Made by a program: the position numbers and the translations under genes | In this document: positions 661 to 12,800 of the stretch, one piece after another | Position numbering within the stretch: the first letter of the stretch is position 1 | Layout: each line of letters opens with the position of its first letter | The notes under the pieces: generated by a model | Databases searched by the model: none | Seen by the model: only the letters and a program-made list of their open reading frames with translations | Told to the model about the DNA's origin: nothing | Source: Apostichopus japonicus | Lineage: Eukaryota > Echinodermata > Holothuroidea > Aspidochirotida > Stichopodidae | Assembly: GCF_037975245.1 (NCBI RefSeq) | Contig: NC_092576.1 | Span: 2,971,501 to 3,035,500 of the forward strand | Direction: 5' to 3' | DNA length: 64,000 bases

Positions 661-1111
661 CTAGCCAATCACATTCCACTTAAGTGGAATAGACTAGCCA
701 ATCACATTCCACTTAAGTGAAATAGACTATCCAATCACATTTCACTTAAGTGGAATGCATTTCGACTTAAGTGGAATTGTATTCCACTTAAGTGAAATAG
801 ACAGGACATTCCACTTAAGTGGAATTGTATTCCACTTAAGTAAAATACAATTCCACTTAAGTGAAATGCATTTCCACTTAAGTGGAATACAATTCCACTT
901 AAGTGGAATGCAATTCCACTTAAGTGAAATAGAATTTAGCTTAAGTAAAATGCAGTGACAAGTTGATGAATTCAGCTTAAGTAAAATACAATTAAGCTTA
1001 AGTGGAATGGTATTCCACTTAAGTGAAATAGAATTCCACTTAAGTTAAATAGTATTCTGCTTAAGTGAAATTGAATTCCACTTAAGTGAAATGTATTCGA
1101 CTTAAGTCGAA
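661..1111. repeat. Array of CTTAAG-centred palindromes
   Basis: About 19 copies of an 18-bp self-complementary unit (consensus ATTCCACTTAAGTGGAAT, some arms changed to GTGAAAT or GTAAAAT) sit roughly every 20-30 bp. Two more lie at 1-42. The first three are part of a ~34-bp tandem unit that also carries TAGCCAATCAC. The 67-residue reading frame across 755-958 is only the repeat read through (a repeating HLSGI/HLSEI pattern) and is not a gene. Each unit can form a hairpin. The core CACTTAAGTG also holds two overlapping, opposed TTAAGTG sites, the type bound by NK2-class homeodomains; that reading is inference. Confidence 0.9.
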
Positions 1112-2180
1112 TTGCGAGGTAAATGTTAAAACGGCTTGCCATAAGGCCGACGGATAAGGCTAGGTTAGAATGTTTAGCATAGCCAGACCCAGCTTGCTGA
1201 GACTGTATGCGAAATCCTATGAAGGAAAGTAAGGAGGATTTCTTACAGTTATACCGCCAACTTTGTTGTTGTTTGCAGGAAGATGGTACCTGAATTATTC
1301 TAACATAACTGTGTGTGCTAGCTAGGTCTTGGCTATATGAATTTGTTATGGCACTGGGCTACATTTAAGTTAGTTGCTGAGTGTTAACACAATTGTCATT
1401 TATATATTGACCTTCCCTATTGAGAATGAGGCCACAAATAACTAAGCCACTGCTAAGCCCGAGTAAATCATATATTGGTTACAAAAGGTGACATTACCGG
1501 CTATGGCCAGGCCCGTATAAGCCTTTGGAGCTTATGCCAGCTTGAACATATAGGTATTCGCTAGACCAACTTCAAATGTGCTGCTTTACACCATGCATGT
1601 TATGGGGTTTGTTGATGATGGTGTGTTGATAGTTGATACATCGTCTGTGGTTACTTAACGTACATGAAACTAAGTTTCGGTTTGAAGCTTAACAATATGT
1701 AAATAAACAAAGGGTTGCTAGAATATAGAGGTCAACAGAGAGAACGTATATTGAAATGTGGAATGCTTTTGGAGAATATACTGCATGTAGATATTAAAAC
1801 GCAAAGTAGTTGTACATGTTTTGCTTAAACAGAAATTACAGTAAATGAAAGGAAAATGTAAATCAGGCCAATTAGAGAATCGACCTGGGCAATAGACCTC
1901 AATCAAAAACTTGGTGGAGTGCAAAAATATTAAATACATTTGAACAAACAAGTTGAAATCTGATTAAGAATTAAGTTTTGCGTAAAGTAGATGCATATGT
2001 TTTGCTGTGAGATGATCTTAGCAGTTCACAGAAGTACGCAATAAAAGTCGCACCTCGCTCTATAATGCACTATGGAGTGAAATTTATGGAAGCGATTTTT
2101 GTTTGTAAATTAAACATGCCTACTTAATGGAGGAATTTACATGAAGTCAATTCACAAACAGTACTGTTTGCATAAACTTT
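1112..2180. other. No recognised feature
   Basis: AT-rich sequence between the palindrome array and the pseudogene. I see no coding pattern, repeat pair or RNA gene. Confidence 0.5.
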
Positions 2181-2184
2181 GTTT

Positions 2185-5020
2185 TTCAGAAAATATATTT
2201 GATGATGAATCTTTCTGCAATCTGCAAAAGGATGATATAAAGCAGCTGATTCCAAACATGGAACCAAGATTAAAGTTCTTGACTTGGTAGATATGCTTAT
2301 CTCGTTAGATACTGGAAATTAAGTACGGTGGATTAGTTTATTTTTGTTCATTCAAGAATATTTTTTTTCAAGAATAAATTGTTTGGAAAGTTTGCCAAAC
2401 TATATAATTCAGTCTTTTTGTCATTTCTGTCAGCAAATTTAGAATCATAAGAATTTTTTTCATCTGGTTATTGTACAGAATGTTTACGCAACAAACAATT
2501 CTGCAAGCTCTACCAATGGATAACTGCACCTGCTGTACATGCTTAAAGACAATTGCAGGTGGACTCGGGATTTGTCTGTTATTTAAAACTAGTTCATTAC
2601 ATATTGACTAGTACCTCAACAAAACTTGTTTGTCCAGAGGATGGATGCAAGGAATTCTTTCCAGGGGCTCATGATACTTACTGACATGTCACCCAGATAG
2701 GACAGATATTAGACCACACATAGAAGCTAGGGAGAACATAGAAAGCTGCTACAATTTAGATGAGCATGATTCTGATGGTAATATTGACATAAAACCAAGC
2801 TGAATCTAAACCAAGGGCATGAACATATTATTGTTACCAGTGGCGGAGCTAGGGGTATTGGTCAGGAGGGGCGAGAATGGTCTGTAGGGGCGTCATCGAC
2901 ACTATCAGAGCTATATACGGCTCTGGACACTATCTAAGCGGAGCGCCACCACTGGTTGGCGCGTAGAGTACAGAAATTTTTTGAGTAAAGATACTCCCTA
3001 GATCGCGGAAAATGACCCTTTCCGGGCCTGGCTAATTTGTAGATAAACGAAGAATAAATAGATGTCATCGCCACATTACACAAACAAAATGTGACAAATG
3101 TCAATAAGTAGAGGTCAGTTTTTTTTTAACGTATGCATAATTATTCAAATCCAACTTCAGTTTTCTTCTCTACGATTCAAGAATGCAATGGACTAGTGGA
3201 AGCATTGTCAGTCAAGCTCTCCAAGAAATAAACGATGGTAAACTGTGGACAAGACTGATGGAGTTGAGAGTCTCCTTGAAAGCCTGAACTCTCGATTCAA
3301 TGAGTTTGAAACAGAATATGTGCAGAACAAATACTGACATAAAAATGGTTGTATAGTATAACCTGTTGAGCAAAAACTAGGAAGATCGTTCAAAGTTAAC
3401 ATTGATAGATTCACAGGGAGAAGTTATCAAGAGGAATGCTATCAGTCCATTCAGTACATGCCAATGTAAGAAACAACAAAACGGGTTTCTTGAGCAACCC
3501 GAAGTAATGGAAAGTATCTGGAAAGTGCATGCCTCACAAAATTGTCGTTTTACTTCATATCTTGATGGTGAAGATTTCCAAAAAGTCAAAGACAATAATG
3601 CTGGTGTACGTGTTCTTCCCATATTACTATATGTTGACGATTTTGAAACTGCCAACCCTTGAAGTTCCAGAAAAGACTGTTTCACAAGCTATATGTAAGT
3701 TTTCTTTGTCTGCTTTCAAGTGACCTGGAAATGTCCAGAATATGTTACTGGATGCATTAGCCCCAGCTACACTAGTATCTGACGTTGGAATTGATAGTTT
3801 ACTATCTGTCATCTCAACTGAAATTGAGGATCTTGAAAATGATGGAGTCGAATCTCAAGCTCTATTTAATTTTTAGGTCTGGTTAAACCAAAGTTATTCC
3901 AAGTGATGGGAGATAATTGAGCGCTTAATCAAGTGTCGGGTAACGTAAGCAGTATTTCAGAATCATACTGTTGTCGCTTGTGTAAGACGCATGAAAGTGT
4001 AGCTGGTTTGGCCCCTACAGAGAAGATGTAAATCTCAAGAGAAGGAAGGAAATGAAACTGGTACTTGGTAAATTCAACAGAAAGAAAATTGTTTAATTAA
4101 TAATCAATTAAATTCATGGTTTGTAGACAAGAAGAACTGTCCAAGTCTAGAATTGCTACCACATCTAAATAATCTGTCCGGTGCTAGTGAACCAAAAGCT
4201 TCACAAATGAAATGCCTTGATTTGGTTATGCCACTCATTTTGGGAGATAAAATAAGCAAAGGTTTACTGGACGTTTTGAAACCAATTTTGGCACATAGAA
4301 TCATCATAGATGTTTCATACCTGTTAAAGTAAAAAAAAAATGAAGATGTTCCCAGACAGGAAACTAACACCCAAACAGCAACTTTGCACATATTATCCAA
4401 GAGCACTGGGATTGCTAGGACCACTTGTCCAATACACAACTATTCGATTAGAGGGAAAGCACAAGCAACTGAAAGGCTGGAATAAAACATGTATCAACAA
4501 CATTAACATTTCTTAAAACAATAGCCAAGAAACATCAGCAAACTCATGGTTTCGATTTTTGATGATCCAGTGGCTAGATATGCGTAATGTGGAAATTAGA
4601 ATCCAAACTGATGTCTCAGTATCTTCGCTGACCAATGCAGATCAGGTTTGTGAAGTACTAGGGTGCCTAAAGAAGGCTGACATAGTGTTAGTGAGCTCTG
4701 CACAGATCAATGGATATGTCTGCAGAGCAAGTATCATGATATTGTCAAATTGAGAATATCATCTCCACTTTGAAAAGGTGGAACATGTTTTTGTGGTTTG
4801 TTCTGCTGTAAAGCTTCTTATTCGACCTTGTAACACCAGGTTTTACCATGATTATCATACAAACTGTCTCTAATAATTCCAGATGATTTGTTTCATTACA
4901 AACCATTGCATGCTGTTGACTGTTATGACCTTAGGGCACAGTCTAGTATGTGGTCACACCTTTCAGTATTGCTTGATGACCAATACAGGGTTCTACCTGC
5001 ATCAACCTTTTTCAGTCCCA
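2185..5020 (+). pseudogene. Decayed copy of an uncharacterised SAM-like/C2H2 multicopy gene
   Basis: Scattered coding pieces in the same strand and order match a family I know only as long uncharacterised proteins, present in many copies in fish and invertebrate genomes. At 2188-2290 a SAM-like segment reads DDESFCNLQKDDIKQLIP. Around 2620-2690 is a half-broken C2H2 finger (CPEDGCKEFF, then a stop before the histidine). At about 3614-3660 is the family hallmark LPILLYVDDFETANP. At about 3900-4010 a QVMGDN...CRLCKTHESV segment appears, at about 4400-4480 LLGPLVQYTTIRLEGKHKQ, and at 4700-5015 a C-terminal region with EHVFVVCSAVKLL and VDCYDLRAQS. Stops and frame changes separate all of them, and a small transposon interrupts it at 2838. 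It is certainly not functional as one protein. Function is unknown; the family may be transposon-derived. Confidence 0.6.
2838..3125 (+). mobile_element. Non-autonomous DNA element fragment (CAGTGGCGGAGC terminus)
   Basis: It starts with CAGTGGCGGAGCTAGGGG, like the CAG(T/G)GGCG termini seen elsewhere in the window. At 2930-2963 it carries the conserved module CTATCTAAGCGGAGCGCC...TTGGCGCG that is shared with several other elements here. The right end is not clear. It sits inside the SAM/C2H2 pseudogene, so it inserted after or during that gene's decay. Confidence 0.55.
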
Positions 5021-5908
5021 GCTTTGCCCCAATATGTGGAACTGGATTATCTAATTACTTTCAACCACTTTTTTTACTACACCACTTACTACACTTACTT
5101 TTTACCAGCAAACACTGTAATTTTGGAATGTGCAAGTGCAATTGTTCACAGTCGTCACTCAACATCCTTTCACCGTTGAATTGGAATTTAGGTGACTTAA
5201 CTTCCGAGGAAGACATTGTGGAACATCCACAAGAAAGCCAAGTTCAAGTGAAAACAATGGTCCTAGTTTTGTAAGTACGTTGTCTTAATTTAATCAGACG
5301 TTGCAAAAACCAAAAGTTGATTTTCGTGTTGTAGTGGAATATGTGCACTACCTTAAAGCAAACATTTTACAGGCCTCAGAACACACAGATCGAAATACTA
5401 ATTTGTTTAAAGCCAATTGTGTTGAAATAGACTGATATATTCGTTTACTGTTATTTTTGGCGTCTTGGCGTTCCAAGGAGAGACGAGCCATTTTTTGAGA
5501 AACGCTATCTTGTTTTGTTATGTTAAGAATGCGCTTGCGTAAGAAAGTAAGACCAATTTTTCAATATTAATGATATCAGTTACCCTCCATTCCTTTTTTT
5601 ATAATGAAGTGGAGTAAGGACTTTTCGTGCAGGTTACTGAACAAAACTCTGCTCTTTCCTATATATATTATATGTCAGCAAAGCAGTTGACGCGTGGACT
5701 CTTTTAAATCAATTTAAATGACCATACATTTCATCCTGGTAAAGGTTATTGAAAAAGGAGTGTCAGCGGTCGCGCAGATTTGATAAGACAGGTTCAAGTG
5801 CAGTTTCGAAAACACATAGAAATCACATTTCAGAATTGTCAGAATCCACTGTTGCAAAATGAAAATTTAGTTCTGCTGTCATACCAATACCAATTATTTC
5901 AGTATATC

Positions 5909-6565
5909 TGTAGAGTCAACAACATTGCCGGATTTCTGGATAGCGCCATCTTTTTTTTCCCTGGACAACGGGTTACGAAAGAGAAAAACAACACGTTTTT
6001 CGGTGTAGAAAATAGTGTATTTAAAAAGCGTACTTACGTGCTCCATTATTAACCAATCATTACGGAAGTTTGATTAGGACTTACCTAAAAATCGCAAGGA
6101 ACATTATATATCGTACGTACCAGTGTTATATTACATATTTTATCGTTTATTTGTGAAGAGAAGTTCCACATCTTTACGAACTTCGGCTAAGTAGCCTACC
6201 AATTAAATCGCGTTACCTATCAGCATTAGGCTGCTGTGTAAGGCCTATACTTCATTCCATTTCTCCGCGGACCGCGATATTTATTTGTGTTGAGGATAGA
6301 ATCATCCAGTTCATCACTATTCACCTTTATGTTGGATGCCACGAGCCCGTGAACTTATTCTATTATTATACATCCAGTTCGGATTCCGGCATATCTATAT
6401 TTATATTTCATCTTAAGGAATTACGTTTCACCAGCAGTGTAATTCTGTCTGTCGCCCTCACTCCTGTCGTGAATACGACTTACGTGCCGGCGAAGCAGAT
6501 TCCAGACTCCCCAACATAAGGAATAGGTAAGAACTTTTATTATAGTATTTAAAACCGCCTCAACA
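5909..6565 (+). repeat. 5' LTR
   Basis: 657 bp, TG...CA, matching the 3' LTR except for four substitutions and one base in a T/C run. TATTTAAAA near 6018 could be a TATA box, and a second TATTTAAAA lies near the right end. The LTR is followed after three bases by the primer binding site. Confidence 0.95.
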
Positions 6566-6568
6566 AAT

Positions 6569-6587
6569 TGGTGATCCCGACGTGATT
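6569..6587 (+). other. Primer binding site (tRNA-Trp type)
   Basis: TGGTGATCCCGACGTGATT begins three bases after the 5' LTR. It is complementary to the 3' end of metazoan tRNA-Trp as I recall it (…TCACGTCGGGGTCACCA) with one mismatch. Priming by tRNA-Trp is a reported feature of CsRn1-type elements. Confidence 0.75.
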
Positions 6588-6644: not shown

Positions 6645-7370
6645 ATGTCTACACTTTGCAAATTAATTTTTGTTGCTGACTCAAGAGCACATTCATTTCA
6701 AAAATATTCTAAACCACAACATTACAACCATAGAATTAAATACATTATAAGGAGGGGTGCTAAGGTGAATGATCTGCTTCAACCCACTTTGGAACAAGTA
6801 AGACACTGCAGCAATCGCTGTTACCCAGTGGTCAGAGTGGCTGCAGGGATAAATGACCTCCTAGAATTAAGACCAGTCAAGGACACAACCAAGCCGAAAA
6901 TTATTTATCCATCTACTATCACCTCGGAGGAATTAATATCTACTTTAGAGTTTTTCCGCAGTAAAGTCACAGAAGTCCACCCCAAAGCTATAGTAATCTT
7001 TACCACTATACCCCCCGCAAGCATCCAAAAGTTCCAACAAAATCGTGGGGTCGTCGCACACAGTCAGAGCGAAATCAAGGACATTCAGACCAATTTCAAC
7101 GACAAGATCGACAGGATCAATGATGCTATATATGAATTAAATAATAAGGAGCAAGTTGGAAGAAAATTCACAACCTTAGCCTGGCACGTGTCGATACGCA
7201 AAGCAACCAAACGTACTAACACCCGCACAGGGAAGAAATATAAAGCCAGGGTAAACAATTTCAAAGAACTGTATGACGGCCTGCACGGTACTTCTCGGTG
7301 CAAACTAAAGTGGTTTAACCTAATGCATGAACATTTCTCTAGAGATTTAGAAATAATAAACACCATTTAG
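6645..7370 (+). CDS. SGNH-hydrolase-like ORF of the retrotransposon
   Basis: An intact 241-residue frame between the primer site and gag. All the landmark blocks of the SGNH/GDSL esterase fold are present in order: block I FVADSRAHS with candidate nucleophile Ser13; block II Gly38 in RRGAKVNDLL; block III AAGINDLL with Gly68 and Asn70; block V YDGLHGT with Asp211 and His214 spaced as in DxxH. The usual GDS is ADS here. A beta-strand-like AIVIFTTIPP (115-124) lies between blocks III and V. Esterase domains are known in ORF1 of some LINEs (CR1/L2 type); I do not know of one as a standard part of CsRn1-type elements. Gag starts 29 bases after its stop in another frame. Substrate unknown; a role in lipid or membrane interaction or particle handling is only inference. 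It could also be a catalytically dead RNA- or protein-binding fold. Confidence 0.7.
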   Translation: MSTLCKLIFVADSRAHSFQKYSKPQHYNHRIKYIIRRGAKVNDLLQPTLEQVRHCSNRCYPVVRVAAGINDLLELRPVKDTTKPKIIYPSTITSEELISTLEFFRSKVTEVHPKAIVIFTTIPPASIQKFQQNRGVVAHSQSEIKDIQTNFNDKIDRINDAIYELNNKEQVGRKFTTLAWHVSIRKATKRTNTRTGKKYKARVNNFKELYDGLHGTSRCKLKWFNLMHEHFSRDLEIINTI

Positions 7371-7399: not shown

Positions 7400-8257
7400 A
7401 TGTCGGAAGGAGACGACGAACAAAAGAAAGTTAAGGAGCACCCGAAACAACATACAGCCACCATGTCAGCAGTCTCCATCAAACTACCCCCCTTTTGGCC
7501 AAACGACCCGGCCATCTGGTTTGCTCTGATAGAGGCCCAATTTCAAACTAAGGGTATCACCGCTCAAACGACAAAATATGCCTACGTGGTAGCCGCCCTA
7601 CAGCCCGAGGTAGCAGAGGAAGTCCGTGACCTACTACTGAAACCACCAACAACAGACCAATATGACAACATCAAGGCAGAGCTGATATCGCGTACATCCA
7701 CCTCAGAGCAAAAACGCCTCCACCAGCTTATCAACGCAGAGGAATTGGGAGATCGCAAGCCCAGTCAACTGTTGCGGCGCATGCAACAATTGTTGGGAGA
7801 CAAGAAGTTGGAGGAAAGCATACTGAAAACCCTATTCTTACAACGACTCCCAATTTCTGCACAAACCATACTGGCGACCAGTGATTCTCTGGACATTGGG
7901 CAGCTTGCGGTCATCGCAGATAGAATTTTAGAGGTTAACCAAACACCAACCATAGCACCCGTACAATCCCAGGCAAGCGCAACTGCCTCCAGTGAGATTG
8001 AAGAACTACGGTTAATGGTATCTACCTTGAGTGCTCAAGTCAAAGAATTGTCAGATGGGTTAGCACGTAGAAGCAGGTCCCCAAATAGGTCAGTTTTCAA
8101 CACCGGCAACCGCCAAAGGTCATCCTCAAGGCGACGATTCGACCAAAAGGGGAGTCTGTGTTATTACCACTGGCGATTCGGGAAGGAGGCAAAGAAATGC
8201 CAAGATCCTTGCAAATGGAAAGCAAACCAGACGCCAAAAGACAACACCAGCGCCTAG
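7400..8257 (+). CDS. gag: Gag polyprotein (CHCC zinc-knuckle type)
   Basis: 285 residues. Residues ~26-180 contain the capsid-like region typical of invertebrate Ty3/gypsy Gag: KLPPFWPNDPAIWFALIEAQF, then a helical region with YDNIKAEL and ELGDRKPSQLLRRMQ. A heptad-like segment near 196-222 precedes a basic Ser/Arg stretch (RRSRSPNRS...SSSRRR). The C-terminal zinc motif is C254-x2-H257-x9-C267-x3-C271 inside [14 protein letters not shown], the CHCC form that marks the CsRn1/Kabuki clade. The frame ends in TAG, and the protease frame overlaps it in the -1 direction, suggesting ribosomal frameshifting. Gag would form the particle and bind the element RNA. Confidence 0.92.
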   Translation: MSEGDDEQKKVKEHPKQHTATMSAVSIKLPPFWPNDPAIWFALIEAQFQTKGITAQTTKYAYVVAALQPEVAEEVRDLLLKPPTTDQYDNIKAELISRTSTSEQKRLHQLINAEELGDRKPSQLLRRMQQLLGDKKLEESILKTLFLQRLPISAQTILATSDSLDIGQLAVIADRILEVNQTPTIAPVQSQASATASSEIEELRLMVSTLSAQVKELSDGLARRSRSPNRSVFNTGNRQRSSSRRRFDQKGSLCYYHWRFGKEAKKCQDPCKWKANQTPKDNTSA

Positions 8258-8418
8258 CGGCGACAGGGACGTCTGGTGCACTATTAGGTCGTCAATTTTA
8301 TGTAAGAGACAGGCGCATTGGGACCAGGTACCTAGTTGATACTGGGGCAGAAGTAAGTGTTTTCCCAGCAACGCTAGACGACAAAAAGAAAACACACACA
8401 CACACTACAGGCAGCTAA
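8158..8418 (+). CDS. Pol N-terminal part: aspartic protease, truncated by frame break
   Basis: This frame is -1 relative to gag and overlaps its last 100 bases. It contains the aspartic protease active site DTGAEV (Asp codon at 8338-8340), preceded by GTRYLV. It then runs into the AC tract at 8392-8405 and terminates at 8416-8418 without the rest of the protease. The remainder (ending [10 protein letters not shown]) continues in a different frame, from 8378 onward. The real start is probably by frameshift from gag, not an AUG. The AC dinucleotide run is the likely site of the indel. Confidence 0.8.
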
Positions 8419-8452: not shown

Positions 8453-11446
8453 ATGACACTAGATCTTGGATTACGCCGTATGTTTTCCTGGGTGTTCATA
8501 TTAGCCGACATAAGGACTCCAATCATTGGGGCAGATTTTCTTGCTAACTTTTCTATTTTGGTAGATGTCAGGAACAAGAAGCTAATAGATTCACAGACTA
8601 CTTTACATGTCAACGGAAGTGGATCGAAAGCAAACCCACTTAGCCCAAGAGTCAACATAGCTAATAGTCAAGCGTACGTCACGAAGTTACTTCATGAATT
8701 CCAAGGTATCACAAAGCCGGACTACCAGGAAACTGCATTAAAACATAATGTCACTCACAGCATCATCACCAAAGGTCATCCTGTCACCGCAAGGCCACGT
8801 AGGCTCCATGCAGATAAACTGCAAACAGCAAAAGATGAGTTCAATCACATGTTGCAACTCGGCATCATACGCCCGTCCACCAGTAATTGGGCGTCGCCAC
8901 TACACCTTGTCCCGAAGAAATCTGGAGACTGGCGCCCTTGCGGCGATTACAGGGCTCTTAATAACATTACGGTGCCCGACCAATATCCAATACCACACTT
9001 ACAGGATTTCTCAAACGTACTGGCAGGGAAACAGATATTTTCAACCATTGACCTCGTCCGTGCTTATCACCAAATACCAATCCAACCAGAAGACATACCA
9101 AAAACCGCAATCACAACCCCTTTCGGCCTCTATGAGTTCGTCCGCATGCCTTTTGGCCTCAGGAACGCGGCTCAAACCTTTCAGAGGTTCATTGACCAAG
9201 TTTTAAGGGGATTACCCTTTGTATTCACCTACATCGACGACCTACTCATAGCAAGCAATACCAAAGAGGAACATGAGCAACACCTGCGTGCAATTTTTGA
9301 AAGACTCCAAGACCACGGCGTTGTAATCAACCCCACGAAATGTGTTTTCGGAGCAGATTCAGTAGATTTCTTGGGACATCATGTGACTTCCCAAGGCATC
9401 AGTGCCCTCCCAGAGAAGGTTACAGCAATTCAAGCCTTCACAGAACCAACGACTCTCAAGCAACTAAGAGAATTCTTGGGCATGTTCAATTTTTACCGAC
9501 GCTTTGTACCTCATTGTGCAGACCTATTGTTACCATTAACAGACATGCTAAAAGGGGAAAGGAAAAATGCAAAAATCACATTAAATGATGCTCAACAAAA
9601 AGCATTCAGTCAGGCTAAAGAGACCTTAGCAAAGACAACCTTGTTAACACATCCCCGAGCTGATGCACCAATCCATGTGTCAACCGACGCATCGGATTTC
9701 GCTGTCGGAGGTGTCCTTCATCAAACTATTGAGGGTCAACAACAACCAATCGCTTCCTTCTCAAAGAAGCTGCAACCTGCAGAAACAAGGTACAGCACTT
9801 TTAGCAGAGAACTCCTTGCAATTTATCTCACAATTCGCCACTTCCGCCACTACCTGGAAGGACGTACCTTTTTCGTCCTAACGGATCACAAACCCTTAAC
9901 GTTTGCGTTGCAAGCTAAGCCTGACAAACATTCGCCAAGGGAAATCAGACAACTAGACTTCATTTCGCAATATACAACTGATATCAGACACATCAAAGGC
10001 ACCGAAAACCTCGTAGCAGACGCACTTTCGAGGTCACGATTGGAACATATTTCAACATCATCAATACCAACCACTGTTGTCGACACCGATAACATAGCGT
10101 TAACTCAAACGACGGATGACGAGCTGGAAAGCTTACGAAAATCATCGTCGTTACAATTTTTAGATGTTCCAGTACCAATGACTGAGCGAACCATCGCATG
10201 TGACATTTCCACGGGCATTCCACGACCATATATTCCGCAATCATACCGCAGACAGGTATTCGATTCGGTCCACTCATTAGCACATCCAGGCACAAGGGCA
10301 ACTAGAACGCTAATCAAAAAACGATATGTCTGGCCATCCATGAATCACGATATCGCCAAATGGACACGGCAGTGTGCCAGGTGCCAACAGGTGAAAGTAC
10401 ACCGCCATACCAAACCAGTTTTGTCAACAATACCACCGGCGAACGCACGTTTCAAGCAACTGCATATAGACTTAGTAGGTCCATTACCACCTTCTAAGGG
10501 TTACATATACCTCCTGACCATTATGGACCGTTATACGCGATGGCCAGCGGCATTACCACTAACAGATGCTACCGCGAGCACTGTGGTCAACGCACTACTT
10601 CACCACTGGATTGCAAATTACGGAATCCCAGACACCATAACTACTGACCGTGGGGCACAATTTGAAGCCCATTTATTTCAACGCATCAGTGACCTTTTTG
10701 GATTCAGAAGAATTCGCACTACCTCCTACCATCCAGAGGCAAATGGTATGATAGAGCGGTTTCATCGCCGATTAAAAGAAGCCATAAAAGCAACAGACAA
10801 CCCGTCTGCTTGGTATGATTCCTTACCAATTATCATGTTAGCTCTACGGAACAACCCTAGAAGAGATACAGACTGCAGCCCAGCAGAACTACTCTACGGT
10901 GAACCACTAACAATGCCTTGTGATCTAATTACCGAACAGAAACCCCAAGGGTGTTTGGACCCTAGCGATTTTGTCGACAGGCTGCGACAGCAGATGTCAA
11001 GGTTACAGCCAATCCTAACAAGGCCAACTAAACGTGCAAGCTACCTACCAAAAGACATCAACAGCTGCTCACACGTGTGGATTCGCATCGACCGTGTGAG
11101 AAAACCACTCGAAGCACCCTACTCAGGACCTTATAAAGTTTTGAAACGAACGGAGCATTACTTCACACTCAAAATGAAAGACAAGGAAGACACCGTCAGC
11201 GTCAGTAGACTTAAACCAGCATATCTGGAAGACGACTTCCACACCATCAACCAACAACCAACGTGCTACGAGGCAGCACCAAACACCCCGAGTACTACAA
11301 CAAACAAACATCCAACACACACCAACAAAAATGCTACAACAAACAAACAAACGAAAGTTACATTTTCAATACCACAAAAACAAACTCGTTCAGGCAGAAA
11401 AGTCCACCGACCGACAAGGTTTATTCAAACATTGAATCCAGAATGA
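8453..11446 (+). CDS. pol: Pol polyprotein: protease end, reverse transcriptase, RNase H, integrase
   Basis: 997 residues from the first Met; the frame is open from 8378, so this Met is not the true start. The N-terminus holds the end of the protease (IIGADFL). Reverse transcriptase follows, with [25 protein letters not shown] and the catalytic YIDD at 260-263. RNase H is recognisable by [11 protein letters not shown] and the TDHKPL and ADALSR motifs. Integrase has a zinc finger H607-x3-H611-x29-C641-x2-C644 and the catalytic D673, D732, E768 (D,D35,E spacing). A GPY/F-like motif (YSGPYKVL) lies near 890, and the C-terminal tail is Thr/Asn/Lys-rich. All catalytic residues are present, so this part looks competent; the defect is upstream in the protease frame. 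There is no chromodomain that I can recognise. Confidence 0.95.
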
Positions 11447-11503: not shown

Positions 11504-11511
11504 GGAGGGGG
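11504..11511 (+). other. Polypurine tract
   Basis: GGAGGGGG four bases before the TG of the 3' LTR, the normal position for plus-strand priming. Confidence 0.7.
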
Positions 11512-11515
11512 CTAA

Positions 11516-12173
11516 TGTAGAGTCAACAGCATTGCCGGATTTCTGGATAGCGCCATCTTTTTTTTCCCCTGGACAACGGGTTACGAAAGAGAAAAACAAC
11601 ACGTTTTTCGGTGTAGAAAATAGTGTATTTAAAAAGCGTACTTACGTGCTCCATTATTAACCAATCATTACGGAAGTTTGATTAGGACTTACCTAAAAAT
11701 CGCAAGGAACATTATATATCGTATCTACCAGTGTTATATTACATATTTTATCGTTTATTTGTGAAGAGAAGTTCCACATCTTTACGAACTTCGGCTAAGT
11801 AGCCTACCAATTAAATCGCGTTACCTATCAGCATTAGGCTGCTGTGTAAGGCCTATACTTCATTCCATTTCTCCGCGGACCGCGATATTTATTTGTGTTG
11901 AGGATAGAATCATCCAGTTCATCACTATTCACCTTTATGTTGGATGCCACGAGCCCGTGAACTTATTCTATTATTATACATCCAGTTCGGATTCCGGCAT
12001 ATATATATTTATATTTCATCTTAAGGAATTACGTTTCACCAGCAGTGTAATTCTGTCTGTCGCCCTCACTCCTGTCGTGAATACGACTTACGTGCCGGCG
12101 AAGCAGATTCCAGACTCCCCAACATAAGGAATAGGTAAGAACTTTTATTATAGTATTTAAAACCGCCTCAACA
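11516..12173 (+). repeat. 3' LTR
   Basis: 658 bp, TG...CA, about 99.4% identical to the 5' LTR. TATC follows directly and matches the four bases before the 5' LTR. Confidence 0.95.
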
Positions 12174-12800
12174 TATCTACCCTGTAGAGCATAGATATTC
12201 TACAATGTTGATGTGAAACTACTGCTCAGTACCTTGTTTTTAACTCGAGATATGGTTGTTTGAAACGTTTTCTTCTTTCCAGTAACCCTTCCTTATTGAA
12301 TGCAGTTGATCACAGTAGGTGATCTGTGTTGTCATCAATGAGGTACGCAGATATTTCATACAATTCGGTCGTATTTACTACTTCACGTGAATACGCAACG
12401 TTTTCATTTCTTTGCACACATGAACGATGACTTCCTTTACACATGTATTCCCTACTCCAGGTTTATTTTTCTGGTGTTTAATATTTGTCTATAGTATAAT
12501 AAAGGAGTTTTCCAAAGATTTTCTAGTTTACGCATGACTCCATACATAAACGATTCCGTGACAATGACGGCTTCAACCCTGTAGTTCCCATTCCAAGGCT
12601 TCAACGCGTGTAGTTCCCATTCCAAGGTTATTTTTTTCCCGGTGTTTAGCTTTTTTCTTTACTATTAAGAGTTTTCATAAGACTTCTATTTAACGCATGA
12701 CCCCCTGGAACTATGTAAGGAGACCGACAACCCAATCAAGGTTATTGTTTGAAATAGCGTTATGTTGTTGTGCTTCCATTGAATAAACAGATAACAACAT
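12174..12800. other. No gene recognised
   Basis: Flank of the retrotransposon. A phrase TAGTTCCCATTCCAAGG occurs twice close together near 12,580-12,630. Nothing else stands out. Confidence 0.5.

Follow-up and report, generated by a model that had tools for sequence, protein, structure and literature searches.

Open reading frames (ORFs) for SGNH/GDSL hydrolases are known from long interspersed nuclear elements (LINEs), Ngaro elements, Penelope-like elements and Vesta long terminal repeat (LTR) retrotransposons. Here, an ORF for a predicted hydrolase of this type is described ahead of gag in an element assigned to the CsRn1-type Ty3/Gypsy retrotransposons of the sea cucumber Apostichopus japonicus (assembly GCF_037975245.1, contig NC_092576.1, positions 2,971,501 to 3,035,500; this stretch of 64,000 nt is called the window, and coordinates are positions within it). 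This pre-gag position may be new for the CsRn1 type: among the open-access papers listed by the searches, subscription papers and Repbase notes lying outside that scope, no SGNH gene was found before gag or in the CsRn1 clade, and the word esterase was absent from annelid and mollusc LTR papers and from a 2026 sea cucumber genome preprint.

Vesta LTR retrotransposons of bdelloid rotifers carry a GDSL esterase as ORF3, with catalytic residues reported intact, and Athena Penelope-like elements carry GDSL ORFs (PMC5408684; this report and PMC3905857, PMC9210276, PMC11952523 and PMC2582038 are cited from extracts). For Vesta ORF3, the authors suggested a role in passing membranes and stated that activity still awaited demonstration; they reported that its evolution within the genome did not differ significantly from neutrality (PMC5408684). 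The present element resembles Vesta as an LTR retrotransposon with an SGNH/GDSL hydrolase; unlike ORF3, which follows gag (ORF1) and pol (ORF2), its ORF precedes gag, and Vesta, compared by description, belongs to another LTR lineage. The preliminary description of the window had named esterase domains in LINE ORF1 as the precedent, which stands but is not the only one, since LTR elements with a GDSL esterase had also been published (PMC5408684).

In CR1/L2/RTEX LINEs (ZfL2-1, structure 4c1b), the SGNH fold likewise is encoded upstream of the polymerase gene and has a basic putative membrane face (PMC3905857). The LINE esterase is a domain of a coiled-coil ORF1p in an element with no Gag, whereas here a stand-alone protein would be made beside a full Gag from an LTR element. 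The N-terminal coiled coil, lack of Gag and LINE polymerase of such elements were not found: the first strand of the modelled protein begins at residue 5, and LTRs, gag and integrase are present. Ngaro tyrosine-recombinase retrotransposons also have an extra SGNH ORF (Hydro-SGNH), which, compared by description, follows the recombinase gene, unlike the pre-gag ORF (PMC9210276). An SGNH host gene has been moved by a Helitron (PMC4021074). In Drosophila MDG1 elements, the accessory frames sORF1 and sORF2 similarly lie between the 5′ LTR and gag, on the unspliced full-length RNA, and are translated; they differ in being ~110 and 70 aa long, sORF2 is a FAST-like membrane protein, and no esterase is among them (PMC11952523). 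CsRn1, PwRn1 and AgCR share with the present element a tRNA-Trp primer site and a CHCC Gag motif, with no pre-gag SGNH ORF described in the extracts of that report (PMC2582038).

The pre-gag ORF and its element

The ORF product is probably a strongly basic SGNH/GDSL hydrolase of ~240 aa, predicted to be cytosolic. AlphaFold2 gave a confident model of the 241-aa protein (predicted local distance difference test score 94.5), which had the three-layer α/β/α SGNH fold. When this model was compared with the PDB, 40 of 44 matches at E ≤ 0.001 were titled esterase, lipase, PAF-acetylhydrolase or hydrolase, and sialate O-acetylesterase and PAF-acetylhydrolase were among the top ones; the LINE esterase 4c1b was not among the best 50 structure matches listed, which excludes nothing. 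Model and fold comparison thus agreed with the SGNH fold proposed from the sequence, and a non-SGNH fold, named beforehand as refuting, did not occur.

The residues S13, G38, N70, D211 and H214, arranged in four blocks and at the positions first reported, were near-invariant in 37 rows with identities down to 25% (alignment A3, prepared without the fragments P0010, P0014 and P0037-P0041 and without P0042-P0050, which were found later). Catalytic Ser, His, Asn and Gly were unvarying wherever a letter was present. From these positions, the Ser-His-Asp triad is predicted to be intact, as are the Gly and Asn residues of the oxyanion hole. A chance frame was ruled out by relatives at 29-45% identity with the invariant motif. 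All 37 rows were basic, and in many a basic hairpin (IRKxxKRRxRxG) stood just ahead of the DGLH block, being shortened in P0012, P0013, P0022-P0026, P0028 and P0034. No membrane helix was found by hydropathy, and the early first strand leaves no room for a signal peptide. In one branch of the family (P0017, P0019-P0021, P0031, P0033, P0035, P0036), the C-terminus was extended by an acidic segment whose last part held a conserved WKR, which may be a signal for targeting or interaction.

The features of the element in the window were as follows:

5905-5908 (+): target-site duplication TATC, left copy; the same 4 bp at 12174-12177, both directly outside the LTRs
5909-6565 (+): 5′ LTR (TGTAGAG...CTCAACA), 99.24% identical to the 3′ LTR
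6569-6586 (+): primer binding site TGGTGATCCCGACGTGAT, tRNA-Trp type (motif scan)
6645-7370 (+): pre-gag ORF, 241 aa, predicted SGNH/GDSL hydrolase fold; S13, G38, N70, D211, H214
7400-8257 (+): gag, 285 aa (Pfam DUF7041, E = 1.4e-33)
8158-8418 (+): open frame with DTGA motif, separate in frame from the remaining pol in the window copy
8159-8212 (+): gag CHCC motif CX2HX9CX3C (CYYHWRFGKEAKKCQDPC; motif scan)
8453-11446 (+): pol, reverse transcriptase, RNase H and integrase (Pfam RVT_1 3.4e-37, RT_RNaseH_2 7.7e-32, Integrase_H2C2 1.8e-17, rve 1.7e-14)
11504-11515 (+): polypurine tract-like stretch preceding the 3′ LTR (from the sequence)
11516-12173 (+): 3′ LTR (LTR comparison)
12174-12177 (+): target-site duplication TATC, right copy

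Alignment of the two LTRs (658 columns) gave 4 mismatches and 1 gap, or 0.61% substitutions, matching the divergence of about 0.6% given earlier. The DTGA motif is presumably that of a protease. In the window copy, the protease-like frame is not continuous with the remainder of pol, while all 241 codons of the pre-gag ORF are open, again as first described; in the sister copy L022 (ORF 98% identical), the protease region is open and the ORF is intact too.

The primer site of the window element is putatively assigned to tRNA-Trp by its motif and by the published features of CsRn1-like elements (PMC2582038). The motif TGGTGAYCCCGACGTGAT was found in 20 of the 27 loci scanned (L021-L047, with and without the ORF) and was absent in that scan from L023, L034 (one letter off), L038, L040, L041, L044 and L045. 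CX2HX9CX3C was exact in 12 of 19 gag frames, including that of the window, and inexact in L023, L025, L027, L034-L036 and L046, some of which are cut or broken frames. Both features are hallmarks of CsRn1-like elements (PMC2582038), and by them the window element is assigned to CsRn1-type Ty3/Gypsy elements, in keeping with its initial classification. The Pfam family DUF7041 that matches the window gag has no assigned function there and could be named CsRn1-type Gag; its name did not occur in the open-access literature searched.

Copies, selection and history of the ORF

In the genome (671.6 Mb, 35 contigs), 70 matches to the ORF were found, of which 15, in four subfamilies, were near-full-length, covering 220 or more of the 241 residues with no stop. 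The proposal that the ORF travels with the element was borne out: gag followed the ORF in all 20 best loci, with the start of pol within the fetched flank in 18, and was present in 19 of 21 longer stretches (all but L040 and L041). LTR pairs were found in 13 of these 21, at 98.69-100% identity. The copies included four subfamilies with young members (window and L022; L024-L030; L031-L033; L034-L036), L003 and L014 being the same element. ORFs were 35-44% identical between subfamilies, and full-length hits in the other subfamilies were 36-44% (ORF), 46-54% (gag) and 54-57% (pol) identical to the window. A one-off host insertion, the adverse outcome considered in the preliminary description, was ruled out by the 70 matches, the constant pre-gag position and retention across four subfamilies. 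L035 and L036, 49 kb apart on one contig with common flanks, represent a segmental duplication of a single insertion.

Recent copies of the ORF are under purifying selection. Within subfamilies, five hand-picked pairs summed to 28 synonymous and 19 non-synonymous differences, versus a neutral expectation for the same pairs of ~23% synonymous (p = 5.7e-8); a selection measurement across genome copies had been suggested at the outset, and the synonymous excess is its result. Between subfamilies, synonymous sites were saturated, and the three codon positions differed at 0.48/0.40/0.65 (L021-L024; rows L034-L036 in the codon comparison were read, in frame, from a few codons upstream of the ATG).

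A gag search of the genome gave 83 matches, and some of these copies had no ORF match. Four lineages of this kind were sampled through five copies (L042; L043 and L047, near copies of one lineage; L044; L045), a subset chosen for having no match in the ORF search. A scan with the A3 hidden Markov model over ~1.3-1.4 kb upstream of gag did not find the ORF in any of them (best 2.1 bits). The distance from primer site to gag ATG was 204 nt in L042 and 112 nt in L043, and in L047 the primer site also stood just before gag; the primer motif was not found in L044 and L045. In a reverse transcriptase/RNase H tree (8 ORF-bearing and 3 ORF-less rows, 11 of the 18 extracted), the two groups were split by one branch (support 80/88, 79% of bootstrap trees). 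A single gain followed by retention would be the simpler reading, and on these sequence comparisons the ORF is an accessory gene retained by a set of CsRn1-type Ty3/Gypsy elements. At L046:890-1132, only the first ~55 residues of the ORF are left and gag begins there in another frame; judged by this layout, L046 is an internal deletion derivative that has lost the ORF.

Expression and function

Taking the evidence together, we consider it probable that the ORF is an accessory gene encoding an SGNH hydrolase of CsRn1-type elements. The strict conservation of its active site makes it likely that the ORF serves the element and is not carried along by chance. It is the frame immediately ahead of gag in the copies whose layout was compared and should therefore be the first product of the full-length genomic RNA, translated from its 5′ part. 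The reading frames of ORF and gag differ in the window and L031 subfamilies; L024 and L034 have both in one frame with a stop between them, and L026, of the L024 group, differs again. With no fixed frame relation, readthrough or frameshifting cannot be a general rule, which leaves leaky scanning, reinitiation, internal ribosome entry or splicing as routes to gag. Since the frames are unrelated between lineages, it is very likely that the ORF is translated from the 5′ RNA and that gag is started internally, whether by leaky scanning, by reinitiation or otherwise.

The conserved triad argues for catalysis, and there is good reason to predict that the product is a working ester hydrolase. As to its substrate, our first choice is tentative and draws on analogy: a lipid or an acyl/acetyl ester at a membrane, where the hydrolase may help the Gag particle or ribonucleoprotein to bind, leave or cross the membrane, as proposed for LINE esterases.

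Several results weigh against an accessory hydrolase gene as set out above. The profile search proposed in the preliminary description returned a match of the window protein to Pfam GDSL_2 that was weak (E = 0.071), only third among its weak Pfam matches and below the curated cut-off (14 versus 32.9 bits), which is a detection threshold and not a biological feature. Lipase_GDSL and GDSL_2 each reached E ≤ 0.1 in just 3 of 37 members, and PDB sequence searches with the single sequence and with profile A2 gave no SGNH-named chain. In the selection test, the pairs used were not strictly independent, and single-pair dN/dS (the ratio of non-synonymous to synonymous change), based on few changes each, ranged from 0.12 to a high end of 0.88. 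The support of the dividing branch in the reverse transcriptase tree lay under a strict threshold. In the gag tree (15 rows, without broken copies), ORF-bearing elements did not stand together, so that three changes were needed, and a single change was sufficient in 0 of 200 bootstrap trees; the well-supported branches still allow one. The start-codon context looked weak in the window and L031 subfamilies, judged by the Kozak rule. For the LINE esterase, liposome binding was independent of the active site (PMC3905857).

The putative enzyme might instead deacylate or deacetylate proteins or glycans, with a host regulator or Gag as its target in place of membrane lipids. Sialate O-acetylesterase and PAF-acetylhydrolase among the best structural matches would suit such a role, and depalmitoylation and deacetylation were named as possible mechanisms for the LINE esterase (PMC3905857); a fold match does not fix the substrate, however, and we regard this alternative as rather unlikely. 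The protein could also be non-catalytic, its basic SGNH fold serving to bind RNA, Gag or the head groups of phospholipids, as a chaperone or helper of the nucleocapsid would. SGNH proteins that have lost catalysis are known, Oskar being one (PMC3905857), and the basic charge of all 37 rows and the hairpin before the DGLH block in many would agree with binding. A dead enzyme, however, would not need catalytic Ser, His, Asn and Gly unvarying to 25% identity, and some members have a shorter hairpin, which makes this account unlikely.

Rather doubtful is the proposal of a distinct pre-gag SGNH family, of long standing in a single branch of animal LTR retrotransposons and made first from the genomic RNA, that would replace an envelope by enzymatic means, editing membrane lipids such that Gag particles could exit and enter cells (from soma to germline, or between hosts); it would parallel the FAST-like protein encoded before gag in Drosophila MDG1 elements. 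That a soluble protein performs an env-like or transfer function has slightly poorer prospects still. Such use was held formally possible by the authors for the bdelloid enzymatic ORF3s (PMC5408684), and an MDG1 pre-gag ORF has been linked to cell-to-cell transfer, genetic removal pending (PMC11952523). Opposed to it are the lack of a membrane helix by hydropathy and of room for a signal peptide, the short membrane protein of MDG1 sORF2, which is unlike the pre-gag SGNH ORF, and the view of the bdelloid authors, who count missing membrane and coiled-coil parts against env-like use (PMC5408684). It is very improbable that the ORF is a piece of a host esterase gene which one family carries passively. 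The broken protease frame of the window copy might speak for this; against it stand the same position in four subfamilies with full-length pol hits just 54-57% identical to that of the window, purifying selection, and relatives found in further data sets, two proteins of Holothuria leucospilota among them.

An accessory hydrolase gene ahead of gag would bear on a wider pattern: one fold recruited repeatedly by unrelated retroelements suggests a common need, perhaps at membranes. The pre-gag SGNH family is a good test case, being small, soluble and stand-alone, with ORF-less related lineages in the same genome.

Relatives and other SGNH frames

Searching databases with the single ORF sequence gave 13 proteins at E ≤ 0.001, and the two Holothuria leucospilota proteins are among the relatives of the ORF. 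One relative (P0027) is filed under a Sedimenticola metagenome-assembled genome; it is possibly invertebrate host DNA in the bin and would then extend the family beyond echinoderms. No relatives with DNA context were found in the viral_contigs or genome_contigs searched.

An origin from a host SGNH gene was considered, and no source was found: none of the 54 genome matches of Pfam GDSL_2 lay at an ORF locus (lists compared by eye), the two sets having no overlap at the thresholds used, which still allows distant kinship. No sequence link from the ORF to another SGNH family was found, and such distance is no proof of the independent capture that the preliminary description had raised as a possibility. 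Among the 54 GDSL_2 rows, 10 had open frames of 449-481 aa and 19 had frames of exactly 316 aa, numbers that resemble those of repeats; the genome may hold two further esterase families borne by transposable elements.

L040 (743-6028) and L041 (~757-6032), the stretches without gag, are not LTR elements: they contain a repeat of 5.3 kb that is bounded by 44-bp terminal inverted repeats (97.7%), gave no hit to gag or pol and carries a broken piece of the ORF (residues ~5-177). This repeat is perhaps a DNA-transposon-like element that has captured part of a retrotransposon gene. About 33 of the 70 match rows, at 17 places, appeared to be of one short broken type (counted from frame lengths and ranges) resembling L040 and L041, the two that were examined. 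Beyond the element, an ATGG-type simple-repeat array begins ~0.5 kb past the 3′ LTR and runs from 12717 to ~13540 of the window.
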